A stretch of DNA of 64,000 bases. It comes from Eurosta solidaginis (lineage: Eukaryota > Arthropoda > Insecta > Diptera > Tephritidae). The stretch lies in contig NC_090320.1 of NCBI RefSeq assembly GCF_040869045.1, positions 250,976,978 through 251,040,977 on the forward strand. Direction: 5' to 3'. Shown here in pieces: positions 6,401 through 35,700 of this stretch (its first letter is position 1; each line of letters begins with the position of its first letter). A program made the position numbers and the translations under genes. Below the pieces are notes generated by a model. It had not been told where the DNA came from, made no database searches, and was given only the letters and a program-made list of their open reading frames with translations.

Positions 6401-9400
6401 CTGTTCCGAAAATTGTCATCGTTCTAAATAAGTGTTGCCAATGTGGCATATAAAAGGCTTGCAGGAAAAAGTACTAATCTACATTTGAACGTCCTCAATT
6501 GTTGATTAAACAAATGAAATATATATATTCTTCCTAGCGGTTTATGGTCAAATGCTGTATAGATAATGGCTTGTGAGTTTCCAAATTGCAACAGCAATAT
6601 ACTATTTTTCTCTATTTTCTAATTAAATATTCTTCTAAACACAATAGTTTGTAATTACAGTCATTTAAAGTAGGCTCTATAGGTAGTTGTAGCTTTACTG
6701 ATAGCAAAGAAAATTAACTTTGAATACAAATCTGCCCAAGTAAGAGACTAATGAACCTTCTCAATCACTCGGGTCCTATATTTATATTCCGTCAAACACT
6801 GTCAAAACATCAGCTGTAAAAAACTGTAATCCGATGGAGCCAGTCAATCTCTTTATGGGGAGGGAAATTAATAACCTCTGAAGAGTTTCTCCCAATGAAA
6901 CATTTTTTTTTTCGTGGCACATATGAAGGAAAACTGGGAAGGTGACTCAGGTGAATAGAAAAAGCCTGAATCGCTGTAGGACGATGCCATGGAATTAGAC
7001 ATATATTTACCGAAATTCTCGGAATTAGGAAGCTCCAACGAAATCGCCGATAGACCTATGTACTTTGATGTACATATTTAAATTTAAACGACTTAAACTC
7101 AAGTATCTGTTTTCGTTATATTATCGGCAAAAAATATCCACAATTTACTCTATTTGGTCAATGCACAATGTGTTCATTTACAATATCCATTTTACTACAA
7201 TAGCAAAATAAGTAGAACATATAGAACCATTTTGACATATAGCAAGAAAGCCATAGATTGTCTTTGCGAAGTTTAAAGAGAAACTGAAAAGAAAGAAATA
7301 TTTACTGGCATATTTCGATGATTTAAGCTGCAGACATTGGTGCTTTATAGGTAACCGTATCGGTAACCTCATAACAGCTGATTCGACCAACCTTATGAGA
7401 ATCAATGCAATCGATTATTGGTGCCGCTAAGGTCGTAACCGTATCGTAGCCAACCAATTGGTTTTTGGTTTACCATCGTAACGATAAACAGCTGATTACG
7501 TTAGGGATACGACTACAGCGATACGACAAACGGCACCAATGACTACAGCTTTAAGGCAACTGCAGTTTCACCGTGTGATTCGCGGTTCGAAGTGAAGCCT
7601 TTGATAACATTCGAAATTGACTGATGATGATTATGTGGCGGTTTTCGAAATGTTAAAATCGCACTATGCCAGTAAATTTTACTTTCTTTTCAAAAATAAT
7701 GATTGAATATTCAATTATTATAAGCCGGTGTTAAGCTCATGAATTCTTAAATATTAAACTACTTGAATAATTAGAAGGGGCTATTATTTCTATTGATAAA
7801 TTTTACGCCTTTTTTGCACCCAACTCCCAAATTGATTTAACATATCTGATGGCAATGAAAGTATACAAAAAAAGAACCCTAGGGAAAAAGTATTTAGTAC
7901 TGAATGGAGAAAAAGTGTGCATTCATTTCAAGTTTACATTCGTTAAAGATTGGGAATGGTTCCAACATTCTCACTCTATATTGAATTATATTTTACCATT
8001 CAATAACACACACACTGTAGATTTTGAGCCATTCAGGAATGGAGATTTATAATATGCAACCAATAAATCACAATTTTTTAAAAGAATGCTGAGAGAATGC
8101 ACACTCAATTGATTCAATCTTTTTACAGCTCTGATATGTAATGTTCGGTTACACCCGAACTTAGCCTTCCTTACTTGTTGCTCTATGCATAGTTTGAGGA
8201 TTTTCTTCAACTACAAGAACTGACTACCGTCCACTAATTTAAAAGATCCGCATACCTTATCTCTGGATTCATGCAGGCATTTTGCGCTTCATCCAATGTT
8301 TCTATCAGCAGTTTCTCTAAACAATTCGGCAACATTGTCGCGCCAGGAAAATCTTCAACATCCATATCCCATGTCTCCTCATCACCCAATTTCTTGCAGC
8401 GATCGCTGGCGCGTTTAAATGTTATTGAAAAACAGAAAATACGTATTTCATCGATTAATTTCTGTATAATATCCAATGCCTCAGATGGTAAATCTAAGCG
8501 TATTAGCGTAGCATAAGTTATGCGCGTATAACGTAAACATTGTGAAATCCATGGTAAGAACTGATGTGTTGCCGACGATGAGCCAATAGGCCAGGCTAAA
8601 CCGGTAGTTTGACGTAAAGCGCGCAAATCTGAGGCGATTAATATAGCGACACGCAGGTAAGCGCAAAATTTCTCAATCGCATTTAAGACCATGCGCTATT
8701 CAAAACATCAAATGTTACAAACATTAAATCAATACTTAAAGTTGTTAGTACCTTAAAATCGCCTGGTTTTGGATCGTGCGCTCCACGCAGTTCTCCAGTA
8801 AAATATAACTGTCCCAAACGCCATAAATCTGGTAGCTGTGATGCCGCAATATCGCATATTTCTTCACAAAATAAGACGCGACTGTGCGGCTGATTAGAAC
8901 TATCGCGGTTTTTGGTTTCTGTAACAAAATTTGTTAATTTTTTTTTTTTCAGAGAGAATAAATTTGAGATCATACTCTCTTGAGCTGCCGAGTCCTTAGA
9001 TGCATATTGCTCGAATGTTTGTTTAAATGTGCACTCCAAATATTTTGCGCGTGCTTCAATAGCATCCCAAGCCGGATCAGCATTGCGCATGCGATCTCCG
9101 ATTGTAGTGCCACTTTGTTGGGCCTGAAAAAAGAAAAGCCATGTACATTTAATTTATAATGTAATAAATTAATTTAATATAACAAGTGCCTTATCAGTTC
9201 CACGTTCTTACTGAATTTCTCTGTTACAAGATTTTAACAAGTCATGAACCTGTTGTTGTTATAATAACGATAAAGACAATCGACACTGATGATGGCACAA
9301 CGCCGTAACCGGTTTGTCTCAAAACCAAATTTGACAAGGGATGACGGAAAATCGTTCCAATATACATCACAATCCCCGAGGTTTTTCGGGGGTGTCGATG

Positions 9401-12400
9401 TTGATGATCTTTTGCCGTATACAGATCCGGTACGTTCCGGTAACAAGCACCATTAAGGTACTTGCCCGACCATTTCGGGAACGATTAATTTGACCACATT
9501 AAACCTTCTAGGCCAAAGAGACCGGCCCTAATAGTGGATGAGATTCGAATCTGGCACAGAACTGTTCGTGTTGCGATAAGAACACTGCCCGACTATCATC
9601 AATATCCTCTAACGGGAGTCCAAGGAAACTTGCTGTTTCAACAGGGGTCGACCATAATGTGAGGGGTATTAGAGGCGTTGGTTCCACATTACAATTAAAG
9701 AGATGGTTGGTGTCATGTGTTGACACATTGCAAGCGGGGCATACATTTTGTATGTCCGGGTTGATTCTGGATAGCTAAGAGTTTAACCTCTAACAGTATC
9801 CAGATCGAAGTTGAGCTAGAGTGACTCGCGTTTCCCTGGGGAGTGTGCGTTCCTCTTCCGCAAGTTTTGGGTACTGTTCTTTGAGTACTGCATTCACCGG
9901 GCAATTCTTGGCATAAAGGTCCGATGCCTGTTTGTGGAGTTCACTGAGGACCTGCTTGTGTTTTTTTGCTTCATACGGCTGAGTTGTCAGGTGCCGTATT
10001 TCCTCATAATGCTTGCGGAGATGACTCCAGAGGCTGTTAAAGAAACAGTATTCGCCACTCGTGTATGCTGATGACATTGATATCATCGGCCTAAACACCC
10101 GCACCGTTAGTTCTGCTTACTCCAAACTGGAAAAAGAAGCGGTAAATATGGGTTTGTTAGTGAATGAGGACAAAACGAATTATCTGATTTCATCGAGCAA
10201 AGAGTCAGCGCATATGCGCCTTGGCAACCACGCTACTTTCGGCAACCATACTTTCGAATTAATAAAAGTCCTTATTTGGGAACCAGCTTCAACACTAGCA
10301 ACAACATCAGCACTGAAATCCAGCGAAGAATCAATCTTGCCAATAAATGCTACTTTGGACTAGGTAGGCAATTGAAAAGTAAAGTCCTCTCTCGGAAAAC
10401 GAAAATCATACTCTACAAGTCACTTATCGTACCCGTCCTGCTATATGGTGTAGAAGCATGGACCATGACAACAGCAGATGAAGCGGCTCTGGTAGTGTTC
10501 GAGAGAAGTTTTTCGAAAGATTTATGGACTTATGGACCTCAAGACAACAACATAGTCCAGCGAATTAAAACGAAGCGGCTGCGCTGGCCAGGCCATGTTA
10601 TGCGAATGAAAGATGATTTCTATCGGAATCCGCCTATGGAAGCAGAGGTAGAGGGCGGCCCCCACTCCGTTGGAAGGATCAGGTGGAAAACGATTTAAAC
10701 TCCCTTAGTGTGACCAATTGGCGCCGGTTGGCAGAGGACCGACTGGTGAGCTGATGTCATATCATGAGAAGTGGTAGGATGTGATGAAAGTAGTTTTTTT
10801 TTTATTTTTTTTATGTACACAAAGACCGAACTACTTTTAAGCCAAATAATAAGTATATTCATCAAAATACTTGTAATTTATCCATTTATTACAAATGGAT
10901 CATTCTTTGTGTGGAGTAACCATCAGTCAGTAAAGAAAAGTAATTCAAAATTCTTACAATTAACGATCTTAGCCTAAATAACATGAACAAAAAGTATGGC
11001 ACAAATATTAAAAATCTTCATGGATATCTGACTTGTCCGCATAAGTTTCATTGAATTTTGAGATCCATGCCGCTATAGTGGCATCGGTGATAGTTATACT
11101 TCTTAGCAATGTCTTTCTTTGTGCTATTGGTATTAGGTCGCTACGGTATGCGACGATTGCATAACTCAGAACATGGTCCAGCACAGATCTTCCCTGTGGT
11201 ATTTTGAATTTCAGAGTTGTTGCCTCCACTACTGAATATGCTAACATTGCTTTGATCATGCCTTCCTTTTGGGGATGATCCTGTGATATGAGGCTATAAA
11301 AATACCCTCCACACATTTCCTTGGGAAAGTCAGTATACCCATTGATACACATGTCTTGCGGTAACACAGGTCTTGACGGATTCGTTGCCTTATTCATGTA
11401 TTGGAAAGCGAAATCTGGAAAGCTGTTGACAACTCTGGGCAGCGTGATGCTTTTATTATCACTCAACACCGCTGTCCTCTTAATATCATATTTTCCGATC
11501 AATCCATCCAATCTTGCGATCATTTCTGGTTTCGATTTCAATCTCTTTTTGTCTATAACAGATGGGCCTCGGGTTAGGCACAAAACAACCATAAATGCAA
11601 TGTCTTCAGCTAAAGTTACCACGTTGGTTTCCTTTCTGACTAAAGCATTCCTGACTTCATTGGGGTCAAATCCCATGGTGTAGCGTGCAATAACGTACAG
11701 AAAGCTATAAAATGTTTATGTGATAATAATTTTATTTCACCCACTTTCTAAAAACAATCTTGTTAATAACTTTCAAAATGAAAATTTTTGAAATATAAAA
11801 ATTGAAAATAAATACTTAGACAACTTGATAAATATTAAAACCATTAAAAGTGGTACAGGAGTTAAGTTGTAATAAAGTTAAAAATCAGAGTAAAACAATA
11901 AAAGTACCCTCCATTACTCCCCCTTCCAAAAATTAATTGCTCAATAAATTAAATCTAACCTTTTTCTTTTTATACTCAGCTAAGCAGAGCTCACAGAGTA
12001 TATTAATTTTGTTCGCATAACGGTAACATAACATAACGTAACAGCATAAACTAATCGAGATAGATATAGACTTCTATATATCAAAATGATCTGGGTGAAA
12101 AAAGAACTTCATTTAGCCATGTCCGTCCGCCCGTCTGTCCGTAAACACGATAACTTGAGTAAATTTTGAGGTGTCTTAATGATATTTGGTATGTAAGTTC
12201 CTGGGCACTCATCTCAGATCGCTATTTGAAATGAACGAAATCGGACTATAACCACGCCCACTTTCTCGATATCGAAAATTTCGAAAAACCGAAAAAGTGC
12301 GATAATTCATTACTAAAGACGGCTAAAGCGATGAAACTTGGTAGGTGGGTTGACCTTATGACGCACAATAGAAAATTAGTAAAATTTTGGACAATGGGCG

Positions 12401-14694
12401 TGGCACCGCCTACTTTTAAAAGAAGGTAATTGAAAAGTTTTGCAAGCTGTAATTTGGCAGTCGTTGAAGATATCATAATGAAATTTGACAGGATCGTTAC
12501 TCCTATTACTATATGTGTGCTAAATAAAAATTAGCAAAATCGGATGACGAACACACCCACTTTTTAAAAAAAAATTTTAAAAGTCAAATTTTAACAAAAA
12601 AGTTAATATCTTTACAGTATATAAGTAAATTATGTCAACATTCATCTCCAGTAATGATATGGTGCAACAAAATACAAGAATAAAAGAAAATTTCAAAATG
12701 GGCGTGGCTCCGCCCTTTTTCATTTAGTTTGTCTAGAATACATTTAGTGCCATAACTCGAACAAAAATTTACCAATGCTTGCTCAATTTGGTAGGGGCAT
12801 AGATCCTTTGACGATAACTGTTTCTGTGAAAATGAGGGAAATCGTTTGAAACCACGCCCAGTTTTTATACACAGTCGACCGTCTGTCCTTCCGCTCGACC
12901 GTTAACACGATAACTTGAACAAAAATCGATATATCTTTACTAAACTCAGTTCACGTAATTATCTGAACTCACTTTATCTTGGTATTAAAAATGGGCGAAA
13001 TCCGACTATGACCACGCCCACTTTTTCGATATCGAAAATTTCGATAAATTAAAAAAAATGTCATAATTCTATACCAAATACGAAAAAAGGATGAAACATT
13101 GTGATTGGATTGGTTTTTTGACGCAAAATATAACTTTGGAAAAAACTTTGTAAAATGGGTGTGACACCCACCATATTAAGTAGAAGAAAATGAAAAAGTT
13201 CTGCAGGGCGAAATCAAAAGCCCTTGGAATCATGGCAGGAATACTGTTCGTGGTATTACATAATTCAATAAATAAGCGGTGCCCGACAGATGATGTTCTG
13301 GGTCACTCTGGTCCATATTTTGGTCGATATCTCGAAAACGCCTGCACATATACAATACAATATATATATACTCCCATATCGTACAAACACATTCTAGAGT
13401 CACCCCTGGTCCATCTTTATGGCGATATCTCGAAAAGGCGTCCGCCTATAGAACTATGGCTCACTCCCTTTAAAATACTCTTTAATACCTACCATTTGAT
13501 ACCCATGTCATACAAACACATTCCAGGGTTATCCTAGGTTCATTTTCGTACATGGTGATTTTCCCTTATTTTGTCTCTAAAGCGCTCAGCTGAGTATGTA
13601 ATGTTCGGTTACACCCCAACTTAGTTTTTGTTGTTGCTTTGGGGAGTGTTATCGATGTGATGGTCCTTTGTCGGATACAGATGCGATACGCTCCGGTAAC
13701 ACAGCACCATTAAGGTGCTGGCCCGACCATCTCGGGAACGATTTATATGGCCACATTGAACCTTCAGGCCATCCCTCCCTCCCCACCCCCAAGTTCCATG
13801 AGGAGCTTGGGGTCGCCAGAGCCTCGTCTGTTAGTGAAACGGGATTCGCCGCTCGAAGGTGAGGTTGACAATTGGGTTGGAGAAGCTATATATTGCGCTA
13901 CACAACCCCTTGAATCCCACCCGAACTTAGTCTTCCTTAATTGTTAAATGTAGGTACGTCAGTGTAATTGATAGTGTTAAAAGTTGAAGCCCTTTCAATT
14001 GTTGCTGGCTTCCATCTGTCAACATGAATAGGTCTTTTCCTCATCATTTATTTCGATTTTAAAATATTTCTTATCTTTTTCAACAATCCTGTAAGGTCCT
14101 TTATACGGTTGTTGAAGGGGCCTTTTATTAATAATTCGTACAAACACAAATTTACAATTTTGTAAATCTTTCGGAACATATATACCAGTGTCTAAGTTTT
14201 GATGATGTTTCACATCTGAACTAAGATTTCTTAAACCTTCGCGTAATCTTTTCAAAATTTCATTTGAAGAAAAAGGTTCAGTAGTTGAAACAACTAATTC
14301 AGCGAAATATCTTCTCGATCGCAATCCTAACAGAACAATAGGTAACTCTTCATACCAATTTCTGCAGTTTTGGCTACTTTGAATTTATTAGCATCTAAAC
14401 GCCTTGGTTTAGAGTATGGAAGATTTCCGTCAGTAACTAGCCTATGAACTGTTGAATGTTTAACTGGGTGCGAATAATCTGGTTCAGCAAACAGTGAAGG
14501 AAACTCTTTTAACAGCTTAGTATATTTGTTATCAACAACAAACACTTTCGGAAGCGAAACATTACAAGCGCATGAAATTGTATTAACTGAAAGATTTGTT
14601 ACTGGGTCAATCAAAAGTTTACAACTGATGTGAACTAAAAGACCATATTTGGATAGAAAATCAGCACCACTGTTGTTGTTGTTGTTATTGCAGG

Positions 14695-14736
<42 letters not shown>

Positions 14737-17700
14737 AGGGATAAGGACACTCCCCGAAGGCCTTGGGGAGTGTTATCGATGTTGATTGTCCTTTGCCGGA
14801 TGCAGATCCGGTACGTTCCGTTAACAAGAACCATAAAGGTATTAACCCGACCATCTCGGGAACGATTTGGTATGACCACATTAAACCTTCTAGACCATAC
14901 CGCCCTCCCACCCCCTAGATCCATCAGGGGTTCGGCGTTGACAGAGCCTCGGCTGTTAATGAAACAGGATTCGCCACGGGTAGGTGAGGTTGCCAATTGG
15001 GTTAGAGAAGCTATATATTGCGCTGGCAACCCCTTGAAAGGCTTGCGCTACACAACCTCTTGAATCAATTTAGTACTTTAGTCGCTTCTTACGACAGGCT
15101 TACCTACCGCGGGTATATTCTAAGCCCCCTAACTCACTAATTTCTTTCGCTATATCAGCTATCAAAAATGTTAACGGAAACTCACGACGTAAAACCAAAT
15201 TGACGTTTAAAAGTTTTCTACCATACGTTGAAATCGTTGAACCATTAGCTGCAGCCTGCAGTAGGAATTAAATCTGATGAACGTTTTGTGAAAGGAAATT
15301 TTATCACTGGAAGCACCGATATTTCCGCCCCACTATCAATTAAAAAATTCAATTTGTTTGCTTTATCAAAAATAAATAAGCGACATGTAGAAATGTCTAA
15401 ATTTCCGTTGTTTGTCGCCGCAACAACGAATGATTTCAGTTTGACGACTTACTATTTTTAGAAAAAGCACAAGGCTACTCCCCTTTCTGAGCTTTTTCTC
15501 CAAATTTATAATGAAGTCTACATAACCAATTTGTATTACACTGAGATTTTGAACGATGCCTAAAATGACTTCTATAATAATCATTCCTATTATATGTCCT
15601 AGATCCCGAATTTTGACTGACTTCTTGCCTCAAAGAATCCAATTCTAGTGAGAGTTTTTGAAAATTTTCACACATCTTACTTACTTACTTAATTGACGCT
15701 TAACCGTCTAAACGGTTATGGCCCTCCAACAAGACGTGCCAGTCGCTCCTTCGCTCCGCCAACCGGCGCCAATTGGTCACACCAAGGGAGTTTAAATCGT
15801 TTTCCACCTGGTCCTTCCAACAGAGTGGGGGCCGCCCTCTACCTCTGCTTCCATAGGCGGGTTCCGATAGAAACACTTTCTTGGCCGGAGCATCATCATT
15901 CATTCGCATAACATGGCCTAGCCAGCGCAGCCGCTGCGTTTTAATTCGCTGGACTATGTTGATGTCTGCGTATAGCTCGTACAGCTCATCATTAAATCTT
16001 CTTCGGTAGTCGCCATCGCCAACGCGTAGAGGTCCATAAATCTTTCGAAGAACTTTTCTCTCGAACACTCCCAAAGCCGCTTCATCTGCTGTTGCCATGG
16101 TACATGCTTCTGCCCCATATAGCAGACGGGTACGATAAGTGACTTGTAGAGTATGATTTTCGTTCGCCGAGAGAGGACTTTACTTATCAATTGCCTACCT
16201 AGTCCAAAGTAGCATTTGTTGGCAAGATTGATTCTTCGCTGTATTTCAGTGCTGATGTTGTTGCTAGTGTTGATGCTGGTTCCCAAATAAACGAAGTCTT
16301 TTACTATTTCGAAATTATGGCTGCCAACAGTAGCGTGGTTGCCAAGGCGCGTATGCGCTGACTCTTTGCTGGATGACAGCAGGTACTTCGTTTTGTCCTC
16401 ATAGTTACCAGTCATATAAATGTATATTTGTAGTTTGTAGCTATATGCGGGTGTATATGTGAGTACTACTTCGGCTGATGATTACATGTGTTTGTGAGTA
16501 TTTCTCCGCTGCCTTGTATGTATGCGTGTACATGATGATTGATTTATTTACGTACATACGGCTGCTTAGTATCAGCTTAGAGATGGTAATATTCGTCACA
16601 ATATGAAATTAAGAAATCAGGCATCAAATAACCAAGTTCAGCTGTATTTGCAAGGATACAAAAATTTAAAAACATTTTTTCAAGACCCTCTCAACATAGA
16701 ATTTTTGAAATTTAGGAGCAAACTGTTGCAATTTTTTTTCGACCCAGTCTAATCTGATATATATTTAGTTTTGTTTTATTTCGAAAACCATTTTTGCAGT
16801 GTTTCGATTTACGTTAAAAGTGAGCATATTTTGGCTTTCGTTTCGAGTCCAGGCAATGGTTTTTCGTATTGCTTCATTTTATCCTTTAAGGTTTCACTCA
16901 TATTCCATGTGGATGTTTTATGATCACGGGTGGGAAAATTGTATGAAATATTTTATCTTTTTTGAAGCATTCTGATAAACCCAGCTGGAGATTTCAGAGT
17001 CTAATAGACAAGTTGAAGCACGTAACATGGGATTCAAGCTTGTTACCGGAACGTACTGGGTCTATATCCGCCTAGGGACCATAAACATCGATAACACACC
17101 CCAAAACCTTCGGGGAGTGCTTTTATCTCTATTTAATAATTTATGCCTACTCATTACTAACAATTTTTTCTAAGTACTTGTCACGGGTGAGACATTCTTC
17201 ATGATTGAATAAACCAATGCAAGTAAGACGGATATGGCCTTGTTTAATAAGAGGCACAAGGTCCCAAATTGGACCAGGCCTAAGCCAGATGGGGTGACCC
17301 TGAAGAAGAAACCTTGCACAAAATATCTAGTAATCATTCTAGACAGTAAGTTGTCGTGGAAGCTCAACGTGAAGGAAAGAGTGAAGAAGGCCTCGACGGC
17401 AATTTATGCACGTAAAAGAATGCTGGATTGTACTTGGGGTTAATCGCCCTCTCTCAATGGGTTTTTACAGCGATTATAAGGTCTATCCTATACTATGGAG
17501 TGCTTGTTTGGTAGACAGTCACGAAAAAGAACCTACCTCAAAAAATTATAGAGGGTATGTAGGATATCAATTCTTAGCATCAAACAATCCCGACGGCTGC
17601 ACTGTATGCCATTCTGCACGCTCCGCCTGTAGACCTGGTGACAAATTACATAGCGTTAACAACTGCAACAAGGCTCAGCGACTCGGGGCCGCTTCCCCCC

Positions 17701-20700
17701 AGCGGGTTAGGGGGTTAGAATATGCCCACGGTAGGTATGCCTGTCGTAAGAGGCGACTAAAAGGCGGTATGGCCTAGAAGGTTGTTGTTGTTGTTGTGCC
17801 TAGAAGGTCGCATGTGGTCATAACAAATCGTTCCCGAGATGGTCGGGTTTGGTACCGGAACGTACCGGATCTGCATCCGGCGAAGGACCATCAACTCGAT
17901 AACACTCCCCAAGGCCTTCGGGGAGAGTCCTTATCGCTACAACATCAACAACAACTCGGGCCGCTTTGAGCGCAGATCATACGGCCATAGTAGTATAGCG
18001 TCATCAATTACAGGACGAACAGACTACATGATTCCGCATATGTGCTTCGAAGGGGCTCTTAGAGACACAATAGTGGTAGATGGTTGGCGCAAGGGTGCTC
18101 ACGAGGTGCGTGTATCTCACACGTGTCACGGATGTTTCCAAAGTAGTGAAAGTAATAGGGTCTGCGGTATACTGTGCTGATTCGGAAAGAAACGGATCCT
18201 ACAAGCTGCCAGATCACTGTAGCGTTTTTCAGGCGGAAGTAGTAGCCGTAACCAAAGCAGTAGAAACACTGCAAAAAAATACTCATAACGGGTCTTCTGA
18301 CTGGACACTGCCTTCTAACATAACCTTTCATAATTTACTTATTGGTTGCAAATTGGTTTTTTATTTTCTGCAGTTTTAAATTTTTTTCGGTATTTCTGTA
18401 GCAAAAGTTCAAAATCGTAAAACATTCAATGTCCAAGTGGCAAAATTAAATAAGAATACTGCTTTTAAAATAAAATACATTTTTTGTTGCTTAACAATTT
18501 TTACTCGTCTTTTTACATGTTTTACTTCACTGTGCGAATTACTTTGAAAAGTTTGCGTACCTATGCTATGCTGAAGATTGATAAGTGCGCCGTTGCGTTG
18601 GCACACAAAAAAATTATTTAAATACTCAGATCATTTGGCCACAAGTTATTCAAAAAGGTGGGTGGTGCAAGAGGATTACAGTCTTTATTTCAAACACAAA
18701 AAACAAGTTGGAGAGCATACTTTGATCTTTATTTTGAAAATCGTTTGACATGTCTGGAATTTGTTACATCTTTAACATTGGTGACCTGTTTGTCATACTG
18801 TTCTTGAAAATAAATTCTTGCAAAAAAAATATATACATACATATAAAAATAAATTGTACGAAAATTTAACACATTCAAGTTTCCACGGGAAACTGAATCT
18901 TTGTGCGACAAAAATATATAAAACGAGCCAGACCCGTGCGCATCTTGCGCAACCAATATAAAAGTCTCTTATCAAATATCAACAGAAATCAGCTCTTCTA
19001 TCAATCAGTTAAAGCTTTCAGCATGCGCTGCCATCGGGCGTATGGTAGCAACTGTCGGTAATGCAGTGTAAATATTCAAAATAGTGCCATAGTACAAATA
19101 GATTTCTTTGTGTGCTCACAATCGTTTATTTTTAACAAATTATTTTAATAAATATAGCTAAACAAAAGCACTTCCACCAAAATTGCCCAAAAGCTCGCTA
19201 ATAGCCCGAATATCTATCTCTACAGCCAAACTTTATGTATAGATTTGGATTCAAAATAAGAGCGCAAAAGGAACCGTACATAAAAACAGGAATTAGAAAT
19301 AATATATACGAGCCGGACCCGTGCACATCTTGCGCTACCAATATAAAGTTCTTATCAAATATCAACAGAAATCAGCTGTTCCATCAATCAATTAAAACTT
19401 ACAGCATAGTAGTGTGGTAAATGAATACATTTTGCTATACTGAATATTTGAGTTACTTATTCGACAGTTCAGCGATTCGTAAGGTAACAAAAGGTGCAGA
19501 GTAATCAATAATTTCCTGAAATTCACTACAGTATATTAGAAAAGGTTAGAGAAAAAACGTTTAAAAAAGTGAATTAAAGATATATATTGTTAACAACACA
19601 ACACTTTGTGGTGCTGTACTCTATAAAAACCAAAAAAATTGTGAATTTCATCCCCAAAAAGTGTTGAAAAAAACTAAAATTAAAATTTAAATTATAACAA
19701 GTAAGAAAGGCTAAGTTCGGGTGTAACCGAACATTACATATCTACTCTGCTGAGAGCTTGGAGACAAAATAAGGGAAAATCACCATTTAGGAAAATGAAC
19801 CTAGGGCAGCCCTGGAATGTGTTTGTATGACATGGATATCAAATGGAAGGTATTAAAGAGTATTTTAAAAGGGAGTGGGCCATAGTTCTGTAGGTGGACG
19901 CGTTTTCGAGATATCGCCATAAAGTTGGACCAGGGGTGGTGACTCTAAAATGTTTTTGTACGATATAGATATCAAATGAAAGATGGTGATGAGTATTTTA
20001 AACGGGAGTGGGCTTTAGCTCTGTAGATGGACGCCTTTTCGAGATATCGCCATAAAGATGGACCAGGGGTGACTATAATGTGTTTGTACGATATGGGTAT
20101 CAAATTAAAGGTATTGTAACGAACTTAGTGAAACTCCGCTTATTTTACACCTTCTACTAACGTTCGTGTCGCTAAACTGTTGAATAAAACGCTCCAATAT
20201 TCTGTATTACAAAATGGTCTTATATTACTTTGAAAGTACTTCGCAACTGATAGCGTGCTTAAATCAAACTGATTGATGCTTACTCAGCTTTCGCTCCTTT
20301 TATACTATCTGCTGTCTCGTTCGCATACTTCTAGGCGTTTCTTCTTCTAGAATTTATTACTTAGTTACCAGATACATATGTATATGCATATGAATTTGTA
20401 GTTTATAGTCTATTGCATAACCATGTGCGTTGTTATTACTCTGCTGATGATTGCATACTTTTGTGAGTATCTCAGATATATGCATGTGTATACTGCTTGT
20501 ATGTACATATGTGTAAACATAATGATTGATTTGTTTATGTACATACACGTGACTGCTTAGTATCGGCTTTTTTTTTTTTTTTTTATTTTTTAGAGATGAT
20601 AGTATCCTTTAGTGTTGCTAATATTCGTCACAGTATTAATGAGGGTTATAAAAGGGAGTGTCCGTCAGTTGTATATGTGCAGCGTTTTCTAGACATCGAC

Positions 20701-23700
20701 CAAAATGTGGACCAGGGTGACCCAGAACATCATCTGTCGGGTACCGCTAATTTATTTATATATGTACTACCACGAACAGTATTCCTGCCATGATGCCAAG
20801 GGCTTTTGATTTTGCCCTGCAGAACTTTTTCATTTTCTTCTACTTAATATGGTAGGTGTCACACCCATTTTATAAAGTTTTTTCCAAAGTTTTATTTTGC
20901 GTCAAAAACCAATCCAAGCACCATGTTTCATCCCTTTTGTCGTATTTGGTATGGAATTATGGCATTTTTTCATTTTTCGAAATTTTCGATATCGAAAAAG
21001 TGGCCGTGGTCATAGTCGGGTCTCGCCCATTTTTAATACCAAGATAAAGTGAGCACAGATAAGTACGTGAACTAAGTCTAGTAAAGATATATCGATTTTT
21101 GCTCAAGTTATCGTGTTAACGGCCGAGCGGAAGGACAGACGGTGGACTGTGTATAAAAACTGAGCGTGGCTTCAACCGATTTCGCCAATTTTCACAGAAA
21201 ACAGTTATCGTCATAGAAGCTATGCCTATGCGTGTTCGTCATCCGATTTTGCTAATTTTTATTTAGCGCACATATAGTAATAGGAGTAACGTTACTGCCA
21301 AATTGCATCATGATATCTTCAACGACTGCCAAATTACAGCTTGCAAAACTTTTAAATTACCTTCTTTTAAAAGTGGGCGGTGCCACGCCCATTGTCCAAA
21401 ATTTTACTAATTTTCTATTCTGCCTCATAAGGTCAACCCACCTACCATTTAGTTTTATCGCTTTATCTGTGTTTGGTAATGAATTATAGCACTTTTTCGG
21501 TTTTTCAAAATTTTCGATATCGAAAAAGTGGGCGTGGTTATAGTCCGATTTCGTTCATTTTATATAGCGATCTGAGATGAGTGCCTAGGAACTTACATAC
21601 CAAATTTCATTAAGATACCTCAACATTTACTAAAGTTATCGTGTTTACGGACAGACGGACGGGCGGACGGACGGACATGGCTAACTGAATTTCTTTTTTC
21701 GCCCAGATCATTTTGATATATAGAAGTCTATACTTATCTCGATTAGTTTATGCCGTTACGGATTACCGTTATGCGAACAAAGTTAATATACTCTGTGATC
21801 TCTGCTCAGCTGAGTATAAAAATTGGATGTTGCTTCGGAGGGTTTAACTGTGCAGGGTTAAACTCTAGACAACTTTAACTGGAGTTTAAACTCGCACTGA
21901 AAAAACGAGCACTAGACACATAAGAAAAGCGTCGCCAACAGAAATAACGAACGGTAAGCGATAGTGTGTTGCTCAAATTCAAAACACGATTATCACGAGC
22001 AAACTTGAACATTACTCCTTACCCTGCAAAAATCGTTGGATCATGTGGTCCACTGGAGTACTTACCATTATACTCCACTGTAATGCAGCAATGGACCAAC
22101 TCATGTTTCTACACCAAGATATTGTAAGCCGCTCATTGCTCGTTTTTAACGATTGTAATCACTACACGATGTTTATTGACTGTGGGTACTCCATGGATTA
22201 CTCTGATGTAATGCGGAGCTAGAGTATATGGTCCAGTCCTAGGACATCGCAATGCCCTTCAAAAAACGCGAGTACTCCATAAATAATGTAAGGAATACTC
22301 CTTTGGGAGTATAGGAGTATTCCAAAACTAATCTGTATTCATACAAAAAATGTGCTCCAATTAACATTGCGATGTCCTAGGAGAGGAGTAGGTGATCCCA
22401 CTCTCGCTTTGTTTGTGAGTATTCCATATAGTACATACGTGAGAGTACTTTCCAAAGTACTTTCACTGTAGTACTCCATGGAGCACCCACAGAGGATCAT
22501 ATGCTAAAGTACTAAAGAGGAATTGTGTCGGAAAGAGTTATCGGAGTGAATTTAATTTAATATGAAGGAAAATGAAGAGGGGCAATACAACTTTTATATT
22601 TTTTACTACGAATATTCTTATGTTATTTAGCATTTGCGTGAATAAAGAAACTAATATTTCTCTATACTATAGTATGTATACATAAAACCAGTGCGCGGTT
22701 GCATTTTATCAGAGTTGCCATAGTAAAATTTTATTATCAGTTATTTGTATGCAATATTTTTTTTTTTTGGCAACTCTGTTCGATCGTCATCGTGTCGTGA
22801 TCACGGTCGCTAAAAAACGAGCAATGATCGGCTGATGGTGGTCCGCAAACGCATTGCAAAGGAGTATTGTTAGAGTACTCCAACATGAAGAAAATGGAAC
22901 ACGTAATCCAACAATTTTTGCAGGGTGTTAATTGCACCCTATTTTTTGTATGAATTGTGGTTAATTTTGGAGCACTCCATAGCGAGTACTCCATACATGC
23001 ATGCATGGAGTACTCGCGATTTTTGCAGGGTAGTTAACAAACAAGAAGCAAACCACAATCACAGTATTCAACACAGACAACCTCATAAACATCCTAATTA
23101 CCCATAACCAAAAAATGTTGAAGAAATCGCTAAATTCATCGAAGAAAAAGAAATTGTATGCTAAATAAACAACGACATCTTTAACTAGTATCAACAGAGC
23201 TGATGGCAAAGTAGCCAATGCCCATTAAGTTTGTTCAAAAGCTTTTGACACAGTCAACCACGGGCGCTACTCCTAAACATAGATGATTCACCCTGCCTTC
23301 TTGTCTAAAAAGGTGACCGCAAATTATCTGAATGGTCGGCAATCGTCGGTTCAAATTAGGAACGAGCTCTCAAAACCCAGGAGAATTAAACAGGGAGTGC
23401 CACAGTGTGGTGTCCTATCCCCGCTGAGTTTTTATACTCAGTTGAGCAGAGCTCACAGAGTATATTAACTTTGATTGGATAACGGTTGGTTGTACAGGTA
23501 TAAAGGAATCGAGATAGATATAGACTTCCATATATCAAAATCATCAGTATCGAAAAAAAAATTCGATTGATCCATGTCCGTCCGTCCGTCCGTCCGTCCG
23601 TCTGTCCGTTAACACGATAACTTGAGTAAATTTTGAGATATCTTGATGAAATTTTGTATGTAGGTTCCTGGGCACTCATCTCAGACCGCTATTTAAAATG

Positions 23701-26700
23701 AACGATATCGGACAATAACCACGCCCACTTTTTCGATATCGAAAATTTCGAAAAATCGAAAAAGTGCGATAATTCATTACCAAATACGGATTAAGCGATT
23801 AAACTTGGTAGGTGAGTTGTATTTATGACGCATAATATAAAACTAGTAAAATTTTGGACAACGGCCGTGGCACCGCCCACTTTTAAAAGAAGGTAATTTG
23901 AAAGTTTTGCAAGCTGTAATTTGGCAGTCGTTGAAGATATCATGATGAAATTTGCCAGGAACGTTACTCTATTACTATATGTCTGCTCAATAAAAATTAG
24001 AAAAATCGGAGAACGACCACGCCCACTTTTTAAAAAAATTTTTTTTTTAATTCAAATTTTAAAAGAAAAGTTAATATCTTTACAGTATATAAGTAAATTA
24101 TGTCAACATTCAACTCCAGTAATGATATGGTGCAATAAAATCCAAAAATAAAAGAAAATTTCAAAATGGGCGTGGCTCCGCCCTTTTTCATTTAATTTGT
24201 CTAGGATGCTTTTAATGCCATAAGTCGAACAAAAATTTACCAATCCTTGTGAAATTTGGTAGAGGCTTAGATTCTAGGACAATAACTGTTTTCTGTGAAA
24301 AAGGGCGAAATCGGTTGAAGCCACGCCCAATTTTTATACACAGTCGACCGTCTGTCCTTCCGCTCGGCCGTTAACACGATAACTTGAGCAAAAATCGATA
24401 TATCTTTACTAAACTCAGTTCACGTACTTATCTGAACTCACTTTATATTGGTGTAAAAAATGGCCGAAATCCGACTATGACCACGCCCACTTTTTCGATA
24501 TCGAATATTACGAAAAAAGAAAAAAATGCCATAATTATATACCAAATACGAAAAAAGGGATGAAACATGGTAATTGTATTGGTTTATTGACGCAAAATAT
24601 AACTTTAGAAAAAAACTTGTTAAAATGGGTGTGACACCTACCATATTAAGTAGAAGAAAATGAAAAAGTTTTGCAGGGCGAAACCAAAAGCCCTTGGAAT
24701 CTTGGAAGGAACACTCTTCGTGGTATTACATATATAAATAAATTAGCGGTACCCGACAGATGATGTTCTGGATCACCCTGGTCCACATTTTGGTCGATAT
24801 CTCGAAAACGCCTTCACATATACAACTAAGGGCCACTCCCTTTTAAAACCCTCATTAATACGTTTAATTTGATACCCATATCGTACAAACACATTCTAGA
24901 GTCACCCCTGCTCCACCTTTATGGCGATATCTCGAAAAGGCGTACACCTATAGAACTAAGGCCCACGCCCTTTTAAAATACTCATTAACACCTTTCATTT
25001 GATACCCATATCGTACAAACAAATTCTAGAGTCACCCCTGGTCCATCTTTATGGCGATATCTCGAAAAGGCGTCCACCTATAGAACTAAGGCCCACGCCC
25101 CTTTTAAAATACTCTTTAACACCTTTCATTTGATACCCATATCGTACAAAAAAATTCTAGAGTCACCCCTGGTCCACCTTTATGGCAATATCTGGAAAAG
25201 GCGTCCACCTATAGAACTAAGGCCCACGCCCTTATAAAATACTCATTAACACCTTTCATTTGATACCCATATCGTACAAACAAATTCAAGAGTCACCCCT
25301 GGTCCACCTTTATGGCGATATCCCGAAAAGGCGTCCACCTTTTAGAACCAAGGCCCACGCCATTTTAAAATACTCATTAACACCTTTCATTTGATACCCA
25401 TATCGTACAAACAAATTCTAGAGTCACCCCTGGTCCACCTTTATGGCGACATATCGAAAAGGCGTCCACCTATAGAACTAAGGCCCACGCCCTTTAAAAA
25501 TACTCATTAACACCTTTCATTTGATACCCATATCGTACAAAAAAATTCTAGAGTCACCCCTGGCCCACCTTTATGGCGATATCTCAAAAAGGCATCCACC
25601 TATAGAACTAAGGCCCACTCCCTTTTAAAATACTCTTTAACACCTTTCATTTGATACCCATATCGTACAAACAAATTCTAGAGTCACCCCTGGTCCACCT
25701 TTATGGCGATATCTCGAAAAGGCGTCCACCTATAGAACTAAGGCCCTTTTAAAATACTCATTAACACCTTTCATTTGATACCCATATTGTACAAACGCAT
25801 TCTAGAGTCACCCCTAGTCCACCTTGATGGCGATATCTCGAAAAGGCATCCACCCATAGAACTAAGGGCCACTCCCTTTTAAAACACTTATTAACACCTT
25901 TCGTTTGATACCCATATTGTGCAAATGCATTCTAGAGTAAACCCTGGTCCACTTTTATAACGATATTCCGAAAAGGCGTCCACCTATAGAACTAAGGCCC
26001 ACTCCCTTTTAAAATACTCTTTAACACCTTTCATTTGATACCCATATCGTACAAACAAATTCTAGAGTCACCCCTGGTCCACCTTTATGGCGATATCTCG
26101 AAAAGGCGTCCATCTATAGAACTTAGGCCCACGCCCTTTTAAAATACTCATTAATACCCATATCATACAAAATAAATTCTAGAGTCACCCCTGGTCCACC
26201 TTTATGGCGATATCTCGAAAAGTGGTCCACCTATAGAACTTAAGCCCACTCCCTTTTAAAATTATCATTAACACATTTCATTTGATACCCATATCGTACA
26301 AACAAATTCTAGAGTCAAGCCTGGTCCACCTTTATGGCGATATCCCTAAATGGCGTCCATCTATAGAACTATGGCCAACTTCCTCTTAAAATACTCTTTA
26401 ATACCTGCCATTTGATACGCATGTCATACAATCACATTCCAGGGTTACCCTAGGTTCTTTTTACAACATGGTGATTTTCCCTTACTTTGTCTCCACAGCT
26501 CTCAACTGAGTATGTAATGTTCGGTTACACCCGAACTTAGCCTTCCTTACTTGTTACATATTAAAGTTGTTTTCCCCAATAGACGAACTAGCTTGTAGAA
26601 TAAACACCTATCTTTCCACTCTTTCTGCTTTCTTCACCACGCGCGACCTGGTACTATCACTGACCAAATCCACGGTCTCTGTTTATGGCGTGTAAGAAAC

Positions 26701-29700
26701 AGATGTCGCAAATATTGGACGATCACGAAAGGTAACGTTGCTACCACTTACAAAGCAATAGGGCCGCTCATGTGCTACGCGTCACAAGTTTGGTCGCCTG
26801 GTCTTTAAAACACACTCTGGAAAATGCTGCAGGCCTGCCAAAACTCTGCACTGAAAACTGTCACGGCATGTCTACTTATGGCCCCTCAATATTAAAGAGC
26901 ATAACGAAATGTTAAATAGGTAGTTCTTGCTAAACTGTGGCAAACCAGAGCATCCTAGCAAATAACTGCTTAATTTAACCACTACTTTAAGAGTGATAAG
27001 GAAACATCTTCGTAAGCACTATGATGAGTTCCGGCACCTGCCTGAACAGCCGTTTGGTCCAGATAAGCATAAGGGGCCCCTAAGCAAAATCCACTAAAAA
27101 TCGTAAGACCTTTGCTAGGTCGCGCCCGGTTAACCCCGTTATCAATATACACTATCCTACCATAGCAGAATAATAAAGCAGACTACCAAGGGAGACACGA
27201 GTCACCCTGGCCTAACTTCGCTCTGGATACTGTAACAGGTTATTGGTTACAGGTTAAACTGTTACTTATCCAGAATGATCCCCGACATCCGTAATGTATG
27301 TCTTGCATGCTATACATATGTCCCCACATGAAACCAACCGTCCTTTCAATTGTAATGGTGAACCTACGCCTCTAACAGCAACTCCTGTTAAAATTGCTAG
27401 TATCCTTGCACTCTCGTTAGAGGCGGACTGTTAACACAACTACAACACAAGCAACCTCTGCATAGAGGCAACCCGTTATAGTGCAAAAACTGCGCCTACT
27501 CTATCACAGCGGGCACCATATCACGTATTCTATGTTCGATCGGCATCTGCAAGGCAGATGAGTTTTCACTGAAAGCTTTTCATAGCAGAAATATACTCGG
27601 AGCGCTTGCCAAACACTGCCGAGGGGCGACCCTGCTTAGAAAAAATTTCTTCTAATTGAAAAACCTTATTTATAAAATTTAGATGTTGCTTTGTCCGGGG
27701 TGCGAACCCAGGGCATGCGGTGTGGCAGGCGGTGCACGCTACCATCACACCACGGTGGCCGCCAGTCCGCAAATTACTGTAGACAAATTTACAGATTCTC
27801 TTTATACATTTTTGGATATCTTTTCTTTAAAACTTTTTCGGCCCCAAAAACTACTTCGCAAAATTTTATGTAACCGACCGACTTGTATTTGTAATTGCAC
27901 TTTTTTAGCCAATCATATATATTATTTCTAATGGCTGTTTTTATGTACGGGTCCCTTTTTCGCTCGTATTTGGTATCCAAATCTATAAATAAAGTTTTGG
28001 TTGTAAAGATGGAGATTCGGGCCATTAGCGAGCTTTGGGAAATTTTGGTCGTAGCGCTTTTGTTTAGCTATATTTTATTAAAATAATTTGTTAAAAATAA
28101 ACGATTGTGAGCACATAAAGAAATCTATTTGTACTATGGCACTATTGTGAATATTTGCACTGCATTACCGACAATTGCTACCATACGCCCGATGGCAGCG
28201 CAAGCTGTAAGTTTTAATTCATTGATAGAACAGCTGATTTCTGTTGATATTTGATAAGAGACTTTTCTATTGGTTGCACAAGATGCGCACGGGTCCGGCT
28301 CGTATTTATAATTTTTGTGTACATGTTTTATAAAAACTTCTTTCTATGTTACTTGCAGATTAACTTAAAATGCGTGCCTACGGGTGGCTGCTGTCCACCA
28401 TGCTTACGAAGCGATGTCTTTTAACGGTTACATTCTTTGCGATTTTTGGCAATTTGAATTTTATTGCTGCACAACAAGATAATTATTATAATACACAGCA
28501 ACAACAAGATCCGCAGCAACAACAACAACAACAAAACTACAATCAGCAACAACAGCAGCAACAAAACTATAATACAAATAACACACAAAATCCATTCCAA
28601 GGATCACAAAACTACGATGACGTAAATCAACGTTTCAATAATGATCCATACAATCCAAATCTTAATCAAAATGATAATCAAAATATAAAATACACTTCAA
28701 ATGAACGTGATCGCACAAGATGTCGTACTGATAATTATAATGATTTGCCACTTGATGAGCAACGTCCAAATACCAATTATGGTGCTGATGAAGATTTAAA
28801 TTTCGGTGGACGTGGCAAAACATCGTATAATGTTAAAGAAAAATTTCTTGAATCATTTCATTCACGTGAACAAACTTATTTTATTGTCGCATCACGTATG
28901 GTACGTCCCAGTCTTATCTATCAAGTAGCAGTTTCAATATTACAAGCACAATATCCCATAACGGTACATGCAAGTGTATCATGCGATGCTGTGCAAATAA
29001 GTGGCGATTCCAAAGATGTTAAAGCGGGCGTACCCGAAACAATGTTAATGCGTGTACCACCTACAAGCGTAATGGGTGAATATAAGCTGCGTGTTGAGGG
29101 TTTCTATCAGAATGTTTTTGATGGTTTGGCTTTCTTGAATGAGACACGCTTAGATTTCTCTCAACGTTCGATGACAATCTTCTTACAAACCGATAAACCT
29201 TTGTATTTGCAAGGTGAAACGATACGTTTTCGTACTATACCAATAACAACCGAATTGAAGGGTTTCGATAATGCTGTCGATGTGTATATGTTGGATCCGA
29301 ATAGGCATATTGTACGGCGGTGGATTTCACGGTGAGAAACAAATTGCTATTTGAATTTAATTAAACTCAATTTATGGGGTATGACTAAGGAGTAAAACTA
29401 CTACAGTTAAATTAAAATTCCGTTTTTAAACCAAGCTGAAAGTATGTTTAAAATCTACATCTGAGGATTGAAAACCATTCTAAAAATATGGGAATTTTAA
29501 TTTCTACTGCCTCAGCGTTTTTATACTCAGTTGAGCAGAGCTCACAGAGTATATTAACTTTGATTGGATAACGGTTGGTTGTACAGGTATAAAGGAATCG
29601 AGATAGATATAGACTTCCATATATCAAAATCATCAGTATCGAAAAAAAATTCCGTCCGTCCGTCTGTCCGTTAACACGATAACTTGAGTAAATTTTGTGG

Positions 29701-32700
29701 TATCTTGATGAAATTTGGTATGTAGGTTCCTGGGCACTCATCTCAGATCGCTATTTAAAATGAACGATATCGGACAATAACCACGCCCACTTTTTCGATA
29801 TCGAAAATTTCGAAAAATCGAAAAAGTGTGATAATTCATTACCAAATACGGATTACGTGAGTTGAACTTATGACGCAGAATAGAAAACTAGTAAAATTTT
29901 GGACAATGGGCGTGGCACCGCCCACTTTTAAAAGAAGGTAATTTAGAAGTTTTGCAAGCTGTAATTTGGCAGTCGTTGAAGATATCATGATGAAATTTGG
30001 CAGGAACGTTACTCTTTTTACTATATATCTGCTTGATAAAAATTTGCAAAATTGGAGAACGACCACGCCCACTTTTTAAAAAAAAAATTTTTTAAATTCA
30101 AATTTTAAAATAAAAGTTAATATCTTTACAGTATATAAGTAAATTATGTCAACATTCAACTCCAGTAATTTTATGTTGCAACAAAATACAAAAATAAAAG
30201 AAAATATCAAAATGGGCGTAACTCTGCCCTTTTCCATTTAATTTGTCTAGGATACTTTTAATGCCATAAGTCGAACAAAAATTTACCAATCCTTGTGAAA
30301 TTTGGTAGAGGCTTAGATTCTAGGACGATAACTGTTTTCTGTGAAAAAGGGCGAAATCGGTTGAAGCCACGCCCCGTTTTTATACACAGTCGACCGTCTG
30401 TCCTTCCGCTCGGCCGTTAACATGATAACTTGAGCAAAAATCGATATATCTTTACTAAACTCAGTTCACGTACTTATCTGAACTCACTTTGTATTGGTGT
30501 AAAAAATGGCCGAAATCCGACTATGGCCACGCCCACATTTTCGATATCGAAAATTACGAAAAATGAAAAAAATGCCATAATTATATACCAAATACGAAAA
30601 AAGGGACGAAACATGGTAATTGTATTGGTCTATACACGCAAAATATAACTTTAGAAAAAAACTTGGTAAAATGGGTGTGACACCTACCATATTAAGCAGA
30701 AGAAAATGAAAAAGTTTTGCAGGGCGAAATCTAAAGCCCTTGGAATCTTGGAAGGTTCGTGATATTACATATATAAATAAATTAGCGGTACCCGACAGAT
30801 GATGTTCTGGATCACCCTGGTCCACATTTTGGGTCGATATTTCGAAAACGCCTTCATATATACAACTAAGGGCCACTCCCTTTTAAAACCCTTATTAATA
30901 CCTTTAATTTGATACCCATATCGTACAAACACATTCTAGAGTCACCCCTGGTCCACGTTTATGGCGATATCTCGAAAAGGCGTTCACATATAGAACTAAG
31001 GCCCACTTTTTTAAAATACTCATTAACACCTTTCATTTGATACCCATATCGTACAAAAAAATTCTAGAGTCACCCCTGGCCCACCTTTATGGCGATATCT
31101 CGAAAAGGCATCCACCTATAGAACTAAGGCCCACTCCCTTTTAAAATACTCATTAACACCTTTCATTTGATACCCATATCGCACAAACAAATTCTAGAGT
31201 CACCCCTGGTCCACCTTTATGGCGATATCTTGAAAAGGCTTGGGTATCAAACGAAAGGTGTTACTGAGCATTTTAAGAGGGAGTGGGCATTAGGTCTATA
31301 GGTGGAAGCCTTTTCGAGATATCGCCATTAGGGTGGGCCGGGGGTGACTCTAGAATGTTTGTACGATATGGGTATCAAACGAAAGGTGTTACTGAGCATT
31401 TTAAGAGGGAGTGGGCATTAGGTCTATAGGTGGACGCCTTTTCGAGATATCGCCATTAGGGTGGGCCAGGGGTGACTCTAGAATGTGTTTGTGCGATATG
31501 GGTATCAAATGAAAGGTGGTAATGAGTATTTTAAAAGGGAGTAATCCTTAGTTCTATAGGTGGACGCCTTTTCGAGATATCGCCATAAAGGTGGACCAAG
31601 GGTGACTCTAGAATGTTTGTACGATATGGGTATCAAACGAAAGGTGTTACTGAGCATTTTAAGAGGGAGTGGGCATTAGGTCTATAGGTGGACGCCTTTT
31701 CGAGATATCGCCATTAAGGTGGGCCAGGGTGACTCTAGAATGTGTTTGTACGATATGGGTATCAAATGAAAGGTGGTAATGAGTATTTTAAAAGGGAGTA
31801 ATCCTTAGTTCTATAGGTGGACGCCTTTTCGAGATATCGCCATAAAGGTGGACCAAGGGTGACTCTAGAATGTTTGTACGATATGGGTATCAAACGAAAG
31901 GTGTTACTGAGCATTTTAAGAGGGAGTGGGCATTAGGTCTATAACTGGACGCCTTTTCGAGATATCGCCATTAGGGTGGGTCAGGGGTGACTCTAGAATG
32001 TTTTTACGATATGGGTATCAAACGAAAGGTGTTACTGAGCATTTTAAGAGGGAGTGGACATTCGGTCTATAGGTGGACGCCTTTTCGAGATATCGCCATT
32101 AGGGTGGGCCAGGGGTGACTCTAGAATGTTTGTACGATATGGGTATCAAAAGAAAGGTGTTACTGAGCATTTTAAGAGGGAGTGGGCATTAGGTCTATAG
32201 GTGGACGCCTTTTCGAGATATCGACATTAGGGTGGGCCAGGGGTGACTCTAGAATGTGTTTGTATGATATGGATATCAAATTAAAGGTATTAATGAGGGT
32301 TTTAAAAGCGAGTGGCCCTTAGATGTATATGTGAAGGCGTTCTCGCGATATCGACCAAAATGTGGACCAGGTGATCCAGAAAATCATCTGTCGGGTACTG
32401 CTAATTTATTTATATATGCAATACCACTAACAGTATTCCTGCCAAGATTCCGAGGGCTGTTGATTTCGCCTTGTAGAACTTTTTCATTTTCTTCTACTTA
32501 ATATGGTAGGTGTCACACCCATTTTACAAAGTTTTTTCCAAAGTTATATTTTGCGTCAATAAACCAATCCAGTTACCATGTTTCATCCCTTTTTTCGTAT
32601 TTGGTATAGAATTATGGCATTTTTTTCATTTTTCGTAATTTTCGATATCGATAAAGTGGGCGTGGTTATGGTGAGTTCAGATAAGTATGTGGGCTAAGTT

Positions 32701-35700
32701 TAGTAAAGATATATCGGTTTTTGCTCAAGTTATTGTGTTAAGGGCCGAGCGGAAGGACAGACGGTGGACTGTGTATAAAAACTGGGCGTGGCTTCCACCG
32801 ATTTCGCCCATTTTCACAGAGAACAGTTACCGTCATAGAATCTATGCCCCTACCAAATTTGAGAAGGATTGGTAAATTTTTGTTCGACTTATGGCATTAA
32901 AAGTATTCTAGACAAACTAAATGAAAATGGGCGGAGCCACGCCCATTTTGAAATTTTCATTAATTTTTGTATTTTGTTGCATCATATCATTACTGGAGTT
33001 GAATTTTGACTTAATTTACTTATATACAGTAAAGATATTAAATTTTTTGTTAAAATTTGAATTAAAAAAAATGTTTTTTTTAAAAAGTGGGCGTGTTCTT
33101 CATCCAATTTTGCTATTTGGCACATATATAGTAATAGTAGTAACGTTGCTGCCAAATTTCATCATGATATCTTCAACGACTGCCAAATTACAGCTTGCAA
33201 AACTTTTAAATTACCTTCTTGTAAAAGTGGGCGGTGCCACGCCCATTGTCCAAAATCTTACTAATTTTGTGTTCTGCGTCATAACGTCAACCCATCTACC
33301 AAGTTTCATCGCTTTAGCCGCCTTTGGCAATGAATTATCGCATTTTTTCGGTTTTTCGAAATTTTCGATATCGAAAAAGTTGGCGTGGTTATAGTCCGAT
33401 ATTGTTCATTTTAAATAGCGATCTGAGATGAGTGCCCAGGAATCTACATACCAAATTTCATCAAGATACCTCAAAATTTACTCAAGTTATCGTGTTAACG
33501 GACAGACGGACGGACGGACGGACATGGCTCAATCAAATTTTTTTTCGATACTGATGATTTTGATATATGGAAGTCTATATCTATTCCGATTTATACATGT
33601 ACAACCAACTGTTATCCAATCAAAGTTAATATACTCTGTGAGCTCTGCTCAACTGAGTATAAAAAGCTAAGGAAGGCGTAAGTTCAGGCGAAACCGAACA
33701 ATATATAACCAGCTGGGTGGTCCTATATATATTAAGGAGAAATTTTAGGAGAAATGTAACCAACATTAAACGATTTCAAATCTGGAACACACTACCTACA
33801 CATACGCAAATATTGTCTTCCGTAAGCACATATCAAACAATTACTGTCAAAGAAGCAAATTTGGTCGATTTTTGTTCGAATTTGATATTGAAAATTTTGT
33901 GAAGTGCTTAATTAAAAGGAGCGGATTTTTTAATTATTGTATCATCTTTGCGTAATATATCTATAATGGCAATTTAGTTACTTGTCATAAGTATGCTGCC
34001 AATTTTGTGACACTTTAAACTTAAAACACTTAAAACAGTTAAAAACAAGTAAGGACGTGACTGTTATAGGCTGTGCCGAAGACTTTATACCTTTCATGAA
34101 TGGGGCTGAACAATAATCTTATCCCATTCGTAATATCCAAATAATCGGCTGTATAAGATATGAAATATATAGTGAACAGATGTACATACCTAAGCGATTT
34201 TTAAGATAAATATAAAATAAAAACAAGTAAGGAAGGCTAAGTTCGGGTGTAACCGAACATTACTTACTCAGCTGAGAGCTTTGGAGACAAAATAAGGGAA
34301 AATCACCATTTAGGAAAAAGAACCATGGGTAACCCTGGAATGTGTTTGTATGACATTGGCATCAAATGAAAGGTGTTAATGAGTATTTTAAAAGGGAGTG
34401 GGCCATAGTTCTATAGGTGGACGCCTTTTCGAGAAATCGCCATAAAGGTGGACCAGGGGTGACTCTAGAATGTGTTTGTACGATATGGGTATCAAATTAA
34501 AGGTATTAATGAGGGTTTTAAAAAGGAAGTAACCTTAGTTGTATATGTGAAGGCCTGTCATGATCCAAGGGCTTTGGATTTCGCCCTGCAGAACCTTTGC
34601 ATTTTCTTCTACTTAATATGGTGGGTGTCACATCCATTTTACAAAGTTTTTTGCGTCCAAAAACCAATCCAACCACAACGTTTCATCCTTTTTTTCGTAT
34701 TTGGTGTAGAATTATGGCATTTTTCATTTTACGATTTCGAAAAAGTGGGCGTGGTCATTGTCGGATTTTGTCCATTTTTAATGCTAAGATAAAGTGAGTG
34801 CAGAAGAAGAGACGGTCGACTGTGTATAAAAACTGGGCGTGGCTTCCACCGATTTCGCCCATTTTCACAGACAGTTATCGTCATAGAATCTATGCCCTAC
34901 CAAATTTCACAACGATTGGTAAATTTTTGTTCGATTGATGGCGTTAAAAGTATTCTAGACAAATTAAATGAAAAAGGGCGGAGCCACGCCCATTTTGAAA
35001 TTTTCTTTTATTTTTGTATTTTGTTGCACCATACCATTACTGGAGTTGAATGTTGACATAATTTACTTATATACTGTAAAGATATTAAATTTTTTGCTAA
35101 AATTTGACTTAAAATATTTTTTTAAAAAGTGGGCGTACTCGTCATCCGATTTTGCTGATTTTTATTTAGAACACATAGAGTAATAGGAGTAACGATCCTG
35201 CCAAATTTCATCATGATATCTTCAACGACTGCCAAATTACAGCTTGCAAAACTTTTAAATTACCTTCTTTTAAAAGTGGACGGTGCCACGCCCATTGTCC
35301 AAAATTTTACTAATTTTCATCGCCATTACCAAGTTTCATCGCTTTATCCGTCTTTGGTAATGAATTATCGCACTTTTCCGGTTTTTCGAAATTTTCGATA
35401 TCGAAAAAGTGGGCATGGTTATAGTCCGATTTCGTTCATTTTAAATAGCGATCTGAGAAGAGTGTCCAGGAACTTACATACCAAATTTCATTAAGATACC
35501 TCAAAATTTTCTCAAGTTATCGTGTTTACGGACGGACATGGCTAAATGAATTTCTTCTTTCGCCCAGATCATTTTGATATATAGAAGTCTATATCTATCT
35601 CGATTAGTTTATGCCGTTAGGGGGTACCATTATGCGAACAAAATTAATATACTCTGCGAGCTCTGCTCAGCTGAGTATAAAAAAAGTCGGTGTGTTCGTT

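Follow-up and report, generated by a model that had tools for sequence, protein, structure and literature searches.

How did an uninterrupted reading frame resembling the nucleoprotein (N) of a segmented RNA virus come to lie inside a host gene of a fly, and how much of that N does it preserve? The question is raised by a 64,000-nucleotide (nt) stretch of Eurosta solidaginis DNA (contig NC_090320.1, positions 250,976,978–251,040,977; the window), in which a long intron of sec5 contains such a frame. A first-pass annotation had described it as an intact phenuivirus-like N that must have been copied by a retrotransposon reverse transcriptase (RT). The frame proves to be of phenuivirus-like N origin, to lack the N-terminal assembly arm of N, and to be followed by a viral-type segment terminus and an A-rich tract. 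The parts of the locus are as follows.

9124..41496, minus strand: intron of sec5; the insert within it has the same orientation
11008..11676, minus strand: open frame of 222 codons for a phenuivirus-like N core that extends from the hinge Gly-Phe-Asp to the C-terminal helix and has no N-terminal arm
10913..11007, minus strand: 95 nt of noncoding sequence from the stop codon to the inner end motif, putatively viral as judged by position
10817..10912, minus strand: stretch of 96 nt with a phenuivirus-type segment end motif on each side, 10817 being the presumed viral terminus
10794..10816, minus strand: ACAT and then A8-T-A10, directly past the viral end

The frame at 11008–11676 runs without interruption from ATG to stop. 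Frames of this length occurred in none of 60 null windows of the window's composition and in three of 60 of the frame's own composition, and length alone is unusual but not decisive. The encoded protein matches the Pfam family Tenui_N (PF05733; E 8.7e-14, profile positions 30–221 of 224), and no cellular or transposon family matches better; the sole other Pfam match, to UBA (E 0.16), fell under that family's cut-off. Among models, the first viral match is N of Hubei diptera virus 3 (E 3.6e-12, 30% identity). Structure prediction from the single sequence gave no usable fold (pLDDT 36.6); with an alignment supplied, the core fold is well predicted, so that the Tenui_N domain and the predicted core fold are both present. 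Of the three residues of the Rift Valley fever virus (RVFV) N cleft that were compared (R64, K67, and K74), two are retained as R36 and K47 and K67 is replaced by V40, in a gapped part of the alignment. The frame thus derives from a phenuivirus-like N, as the first-pass annotation had proposed, and from neither a cellular nor a transposon family. The insert is homologous to a gene of an RNA virus that has no DNA stage, and is best explained as a non-retroviral endogenous viral element (nrEVE).

The relationship to known N proteins is distant. A search of solved structures with the single sequence was weak (best E 0.0033), and none of 372 candidates was confirmed in the protein database with a single-sequence query. 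An alignment-based search recovered 58 N proteins among 6159 candidates; no insect-only virus was recognised among the named members, three of the 58 being nameless. In the IMG/VR viral contigs, no relative was confirmed by tblastn, whether the query was the frame protein (eight pattern matches) or an alignment of three sequences (145 pattern matches). In the tree the frame lies on a branch of length 2.4 with an uninformative sister. The insert contains no RNA-dependent RNA polymerase (RdRp), and Beidivirus membership is defined by RdRp phylogeny.

Homology begins at the hinge, and the ~30-residue N-terminal assembly arm is absent from the frame. In all 58 N proteins, 30–34 residues precede the equivalent of the frame's Gly2, and superposition places model residue 1–3 on chain residue 30–35. 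Upstream of the ATG the reading remains open for only 13 codons, and a hidden Markov model (HMM) of the arm, run on 14 pieces covering three frames of 11677–11965, scored at best −1.1 bits, so that no arm remnant was recognised there by this HMM. The arm of phlebovirus N drives oligomerisation, according to the part of PMC4027202 available. When residues 1–31 are deleted from RVFV N, the minigenome is no longer active, bound RNA is no longer detected, and oligomers still form but with very low efficiency (PMC5764413, in the sections at hand). Any protein translated from the frame would comprise the N core but not the arm that serves assembly. The description as intact therefore holds for the frame, which is open from ATG to stop, but not for the protein, which is a partial N.

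The downstream side of the insert preserves what appears to be the end of a viral segment. On the minus strand, 191 nt beyond the stop codon, the reverse complement of ACACAAAGAC ends at 10817 and agrees with the printed 5' decamer at 10 of 10 bases (a ACACAAAG-type end). Each of the four segments of oriental wenrivirus 1 has this decamer, ACACAAAGAC, at its 5' end, and the decamer is identical to that of uukuviruses (PMC8652140, as excerpted). Because this exact viral-type motif is followed directly by ACAT and the A-tract, it was most likely at a segment terminus that the copied RNA ended. The N contig of a Beidivirus-like virus has a 3' untranslated region (UTR) of 242 nt (PMC10535300, from the portion consulted), and by analogy the insert fits a source virus with a single-gene N segment. 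A 9-nt inverted repeat has its arms on either side of the viral end and A-tract (10787–10795 and 10829–10837), and might reflect snap-back or chance.

Residues 1–263 of the Sec5 profile are encoded at about 42332–41491 and residues 264 onward from about 9090 down, both on the minus strand. The intron between them has GT at 41496 and AG at 9124, is 32,373 nt in length, and holds the insert in sense with sec5. These flanking coding parts and splice-site bounds bear out the proposed location in a sec5 intron and, as far as the assembled sequence tells, put the insert in host DNA between sec5 exons. To the left of the insert is the end of a non-LTR (long terminal repeat)-like retrotransposon (10164–10736, plus strand), of which a second copy, 87–91% identical, is found at 15754–16402 (minus strand). 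The left copy is without the TAAG-repeat tail present after the other one. The possibility that its missing end lies beyond the insert was rejected, as self-comparison showed no repeat in 11677–11948. A repeat family with eight other sites in the window (78–90% identity) occupies 11966–12200, starting ~290 nt upstream of the viral ATG.

The account we favor, and consider probable, is that the N-segment RNA of a beidivirus-like insect phenuivirus was copied by a host retrotransposon RT and inserted in 5'-truncated form. The source would have been plus-sense RNA, either antigenome or run-off mRNA. The copy would have retained the segment terminus and acquired an A-rich tract, and copying would have broken off close to the codon of the conserved Gly-Phe-Asp with which the N core begins, which would be why the 5' noncoding region and the arm were never copied. 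The copy would then have landed in sense in the long sec5 intron. It would be young, as its open frame most simply indicates, and would probably have no function. Several points weigh against this account. No flush target-site duplication was found, the best candidate matching at 12 of 14 bases and lying off the ends, which leaves the A-tract, the exact viral 3' end, and the truncation as the grounds for the insertion mechanism. The A-tract itself requires another source, since phenuivirus RNAs, to our knowledge, carry no poly(A). Sequence searches of the IMG/VR viral contigs and the protein database yielded no close exogenous relative. An inner end motif is unexpected in a plain 3' UTR, and the youth of the insert is something we infer. 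Copying by a retrotransposon RT, which the first-pass annotation took as necessary, is better described as plausible.

The inner end motif bears on a different reading of the 96 nt, which we regard as possible though doubtful: that the RT copied a complete mini viral RNA with both ends, jumped end-to-end to the 3' end of the N RNA, and continued up to the arm. Template jumping at RNA ends is known for non-LTR RTs. On the plus strand of the window ACACAAAG and CTTTGTGT occur twice each, with one ordered pair within 3 kb; this sole pair spans 96 nt, flush with the motifs at both ends, and adjoins the N frame. The inner motif matches the printed 3' decamer at 9 of 10 bases and is oriented as the opposite segment end. 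Such a pair within 100 nt was found in two of 300 null windows of 64 kb, a rate that by extrapolation is ~1 in 10,000 for the 1.3 kb around the frame. Folded as RNA, the 96 nt forms a panhandle-like structure with nine terminal pairs (z −4.77, none of 200 shuffles as stable), two inner hairpins contributing part of the energy. Complementarity extends to nine of the next 15 positions, a level reached by 114 of 5000 shuffles. A foldback element or miniature inverted-repeat transposable element was rejected for these 96 nt, there being no 2–10-base target-site duplication and no second full-length copy in the window. The end motif and the 96-nt distance were, however, put to the test only after they had been noticed, the length of 96 nt is very small, and no parent segment is known. 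A plain 191-nt N 3' UTR requires a single event and fits the UTR length of the related contig, and for these reasons the plain copy is preferred. Either the inner motif arose by chance or has a regulatory role in the UTR, or it is one end of a captured mini viral RNA. In the latter case, the locus would preserve in the genome both a fossil bunyavirus mini viral RNA and a trace of the template jump by which it was captured, and would attest directly to mini viral RNAs among insect phenuiviruses.

The remaining explanations concern the frame itself and its surroundings. One is suggested by a feature near the end of the protein.

11053..11091, minus strand: codons 196–208, C-terminal helix resembling the arm helix of phlebovirus N

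The arm HMM scores 5.0 bits at residues 196–208, whereas none of 58 arm-less N proteins reaches at least 5 bits (best 0.1); this score was equaled in one of 2000 C-terminal shuffles and in none of 2000 whole-sequence shuffles, and an HMM of the tail has no match to this region. The I-x2-W-x3-F spacing of the helix is that of Ile23, Trp26, and Phe30 of Toscana virus N, the pocket-binding residues (PMC4027202, in the part available). If the source N were permuted, with its arm at the C-terminus, the frame would be a complete N and its ATG the viral start. We consider this quite unlikely. The best match falls at the helix for 37 of 58 arms, but these arms are mutually related and hence not independent, and the motif was spotted before being tested. 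In the model the helix superposes on the native C-terminal helix (up to 209–214 on chain up to 243–253), a placement favored by the alignment supplied to the predictor, and the C-terminal piece alone has no match in Pfam or the Protein Data Bank (PDB). The helix is puzzling and is kept only as a lead. That the frame has instead been retained by the host as a dominant-negative nucleocapsid decoy, the first-pass annotation having raised an antiviral decoy, is unlikely. The frame is open, its core fold is well predicted, and the RVFV deletion mutant, without minigenome activity or bound RNA, suggests that such a core would be defective (PMC5764413, as above). The same mutant bound no detectable RNA and oligomerised very inefficiently, so interference is not obvious. 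As for age, 3.9% of point changes in the frame create a stop (transitions weighted double), and assuming 0 to 0.12 indels per substitution, the probability of neutral survival is 0.35–0.77 at 1% divergence and 0.005–0.28 at 5%. The frame is therefore either young or retained; the low values at 5%, which depend on the indel rate, would favor retention, but youth suffices given those at 1%, and appears to be the simplest explanation. Least probable is an assembly artefact or viral contamination fused to host sequence, as what is present is a truncated piece that has lost its other end and sits between host repeats within a gene. Copying and truncation of a viral N RNA thus remains our preferred account.

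As the insert is in sense with sec5, N would be present in mRNA sense within the sec5 pre-mRNA, and the intron is for that reason a less likely source of antisense PIWI-interacting RNAs. A scan upstream for bacterial-type promoters found three against 1.6 expected, and was discarded as meaningless for a eukaryote. The arm-less core is a concrete candidate for a nucleocapsid poison, its use by the host being putative.

Other features occur in the window. In the same sec5 intron, on the opposite strand, a 321-codon frame (28370–29335, plus strand) has a sub-threshold match to MG2 (E 7.5e-6, 26.7 versus 32.8 bits), and we presume that it may be part of a nested gene of thioester-protein type. Aspartyl protease, zinc knuckle, integrase C-terminal, and SAP matches at 2140–3250 and 4448–4561 (minus strand), between sec5 coding parts, indicate a retroelement in another sec5 intron, on the same strand as sec5. 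Two plus-strand frames (54972–55886 and 61611–62279) share a weak DUF3972 match at residues 91–146 and are probably copies of one element.

Among the open-licence PMC papers listed in the literature searches, none was seen to report this element, or to describe a mini viral RNA in any phenuivirus nrEVE. The N of Hubei diptera virus 3, a Beidivirus-related virus (PMC10535300, same portion), is exogenous and has 290 residues as compared to the 222 of the frame. Phlebovirus and bandavirus N proteins of solved structure have the arm, unlike the frame, in which one of three mutated cleft residues is also replaced. Influenza mini viral RNAs are very short yet retain the two genome ends, a feature that the 96-nt stretch may share; they belong to another virus family, and here there is a DNA candidate only, with no known parent segment. 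Most of the arthropod endogenous viral elements found in one study have disrupted frames (PMC4384744, in the text available). Among tephritid nrEVEs, four of 64 listed are Capsid pieces derived from Phenuiviridae (nrEVE_CcapPhenui_1 and nrEVE_EdiaPhenui_1 to 3), and like the present insert they are nucleocapsid pieces of phenuiviruses in insect genomes; they are 248–751 nt as listed, with neither terminus nor intron described in that part of the source (PMC10689555). The present element may be identical to a listed or unlisted one of these. Phenuivirus nrEVEs in flies are thus already published, and this one is an open-frame, arm-less N fossil with a viral-type terminus, which, being identifiable, points to the type of RNA that was captured and to the end from which this happened.
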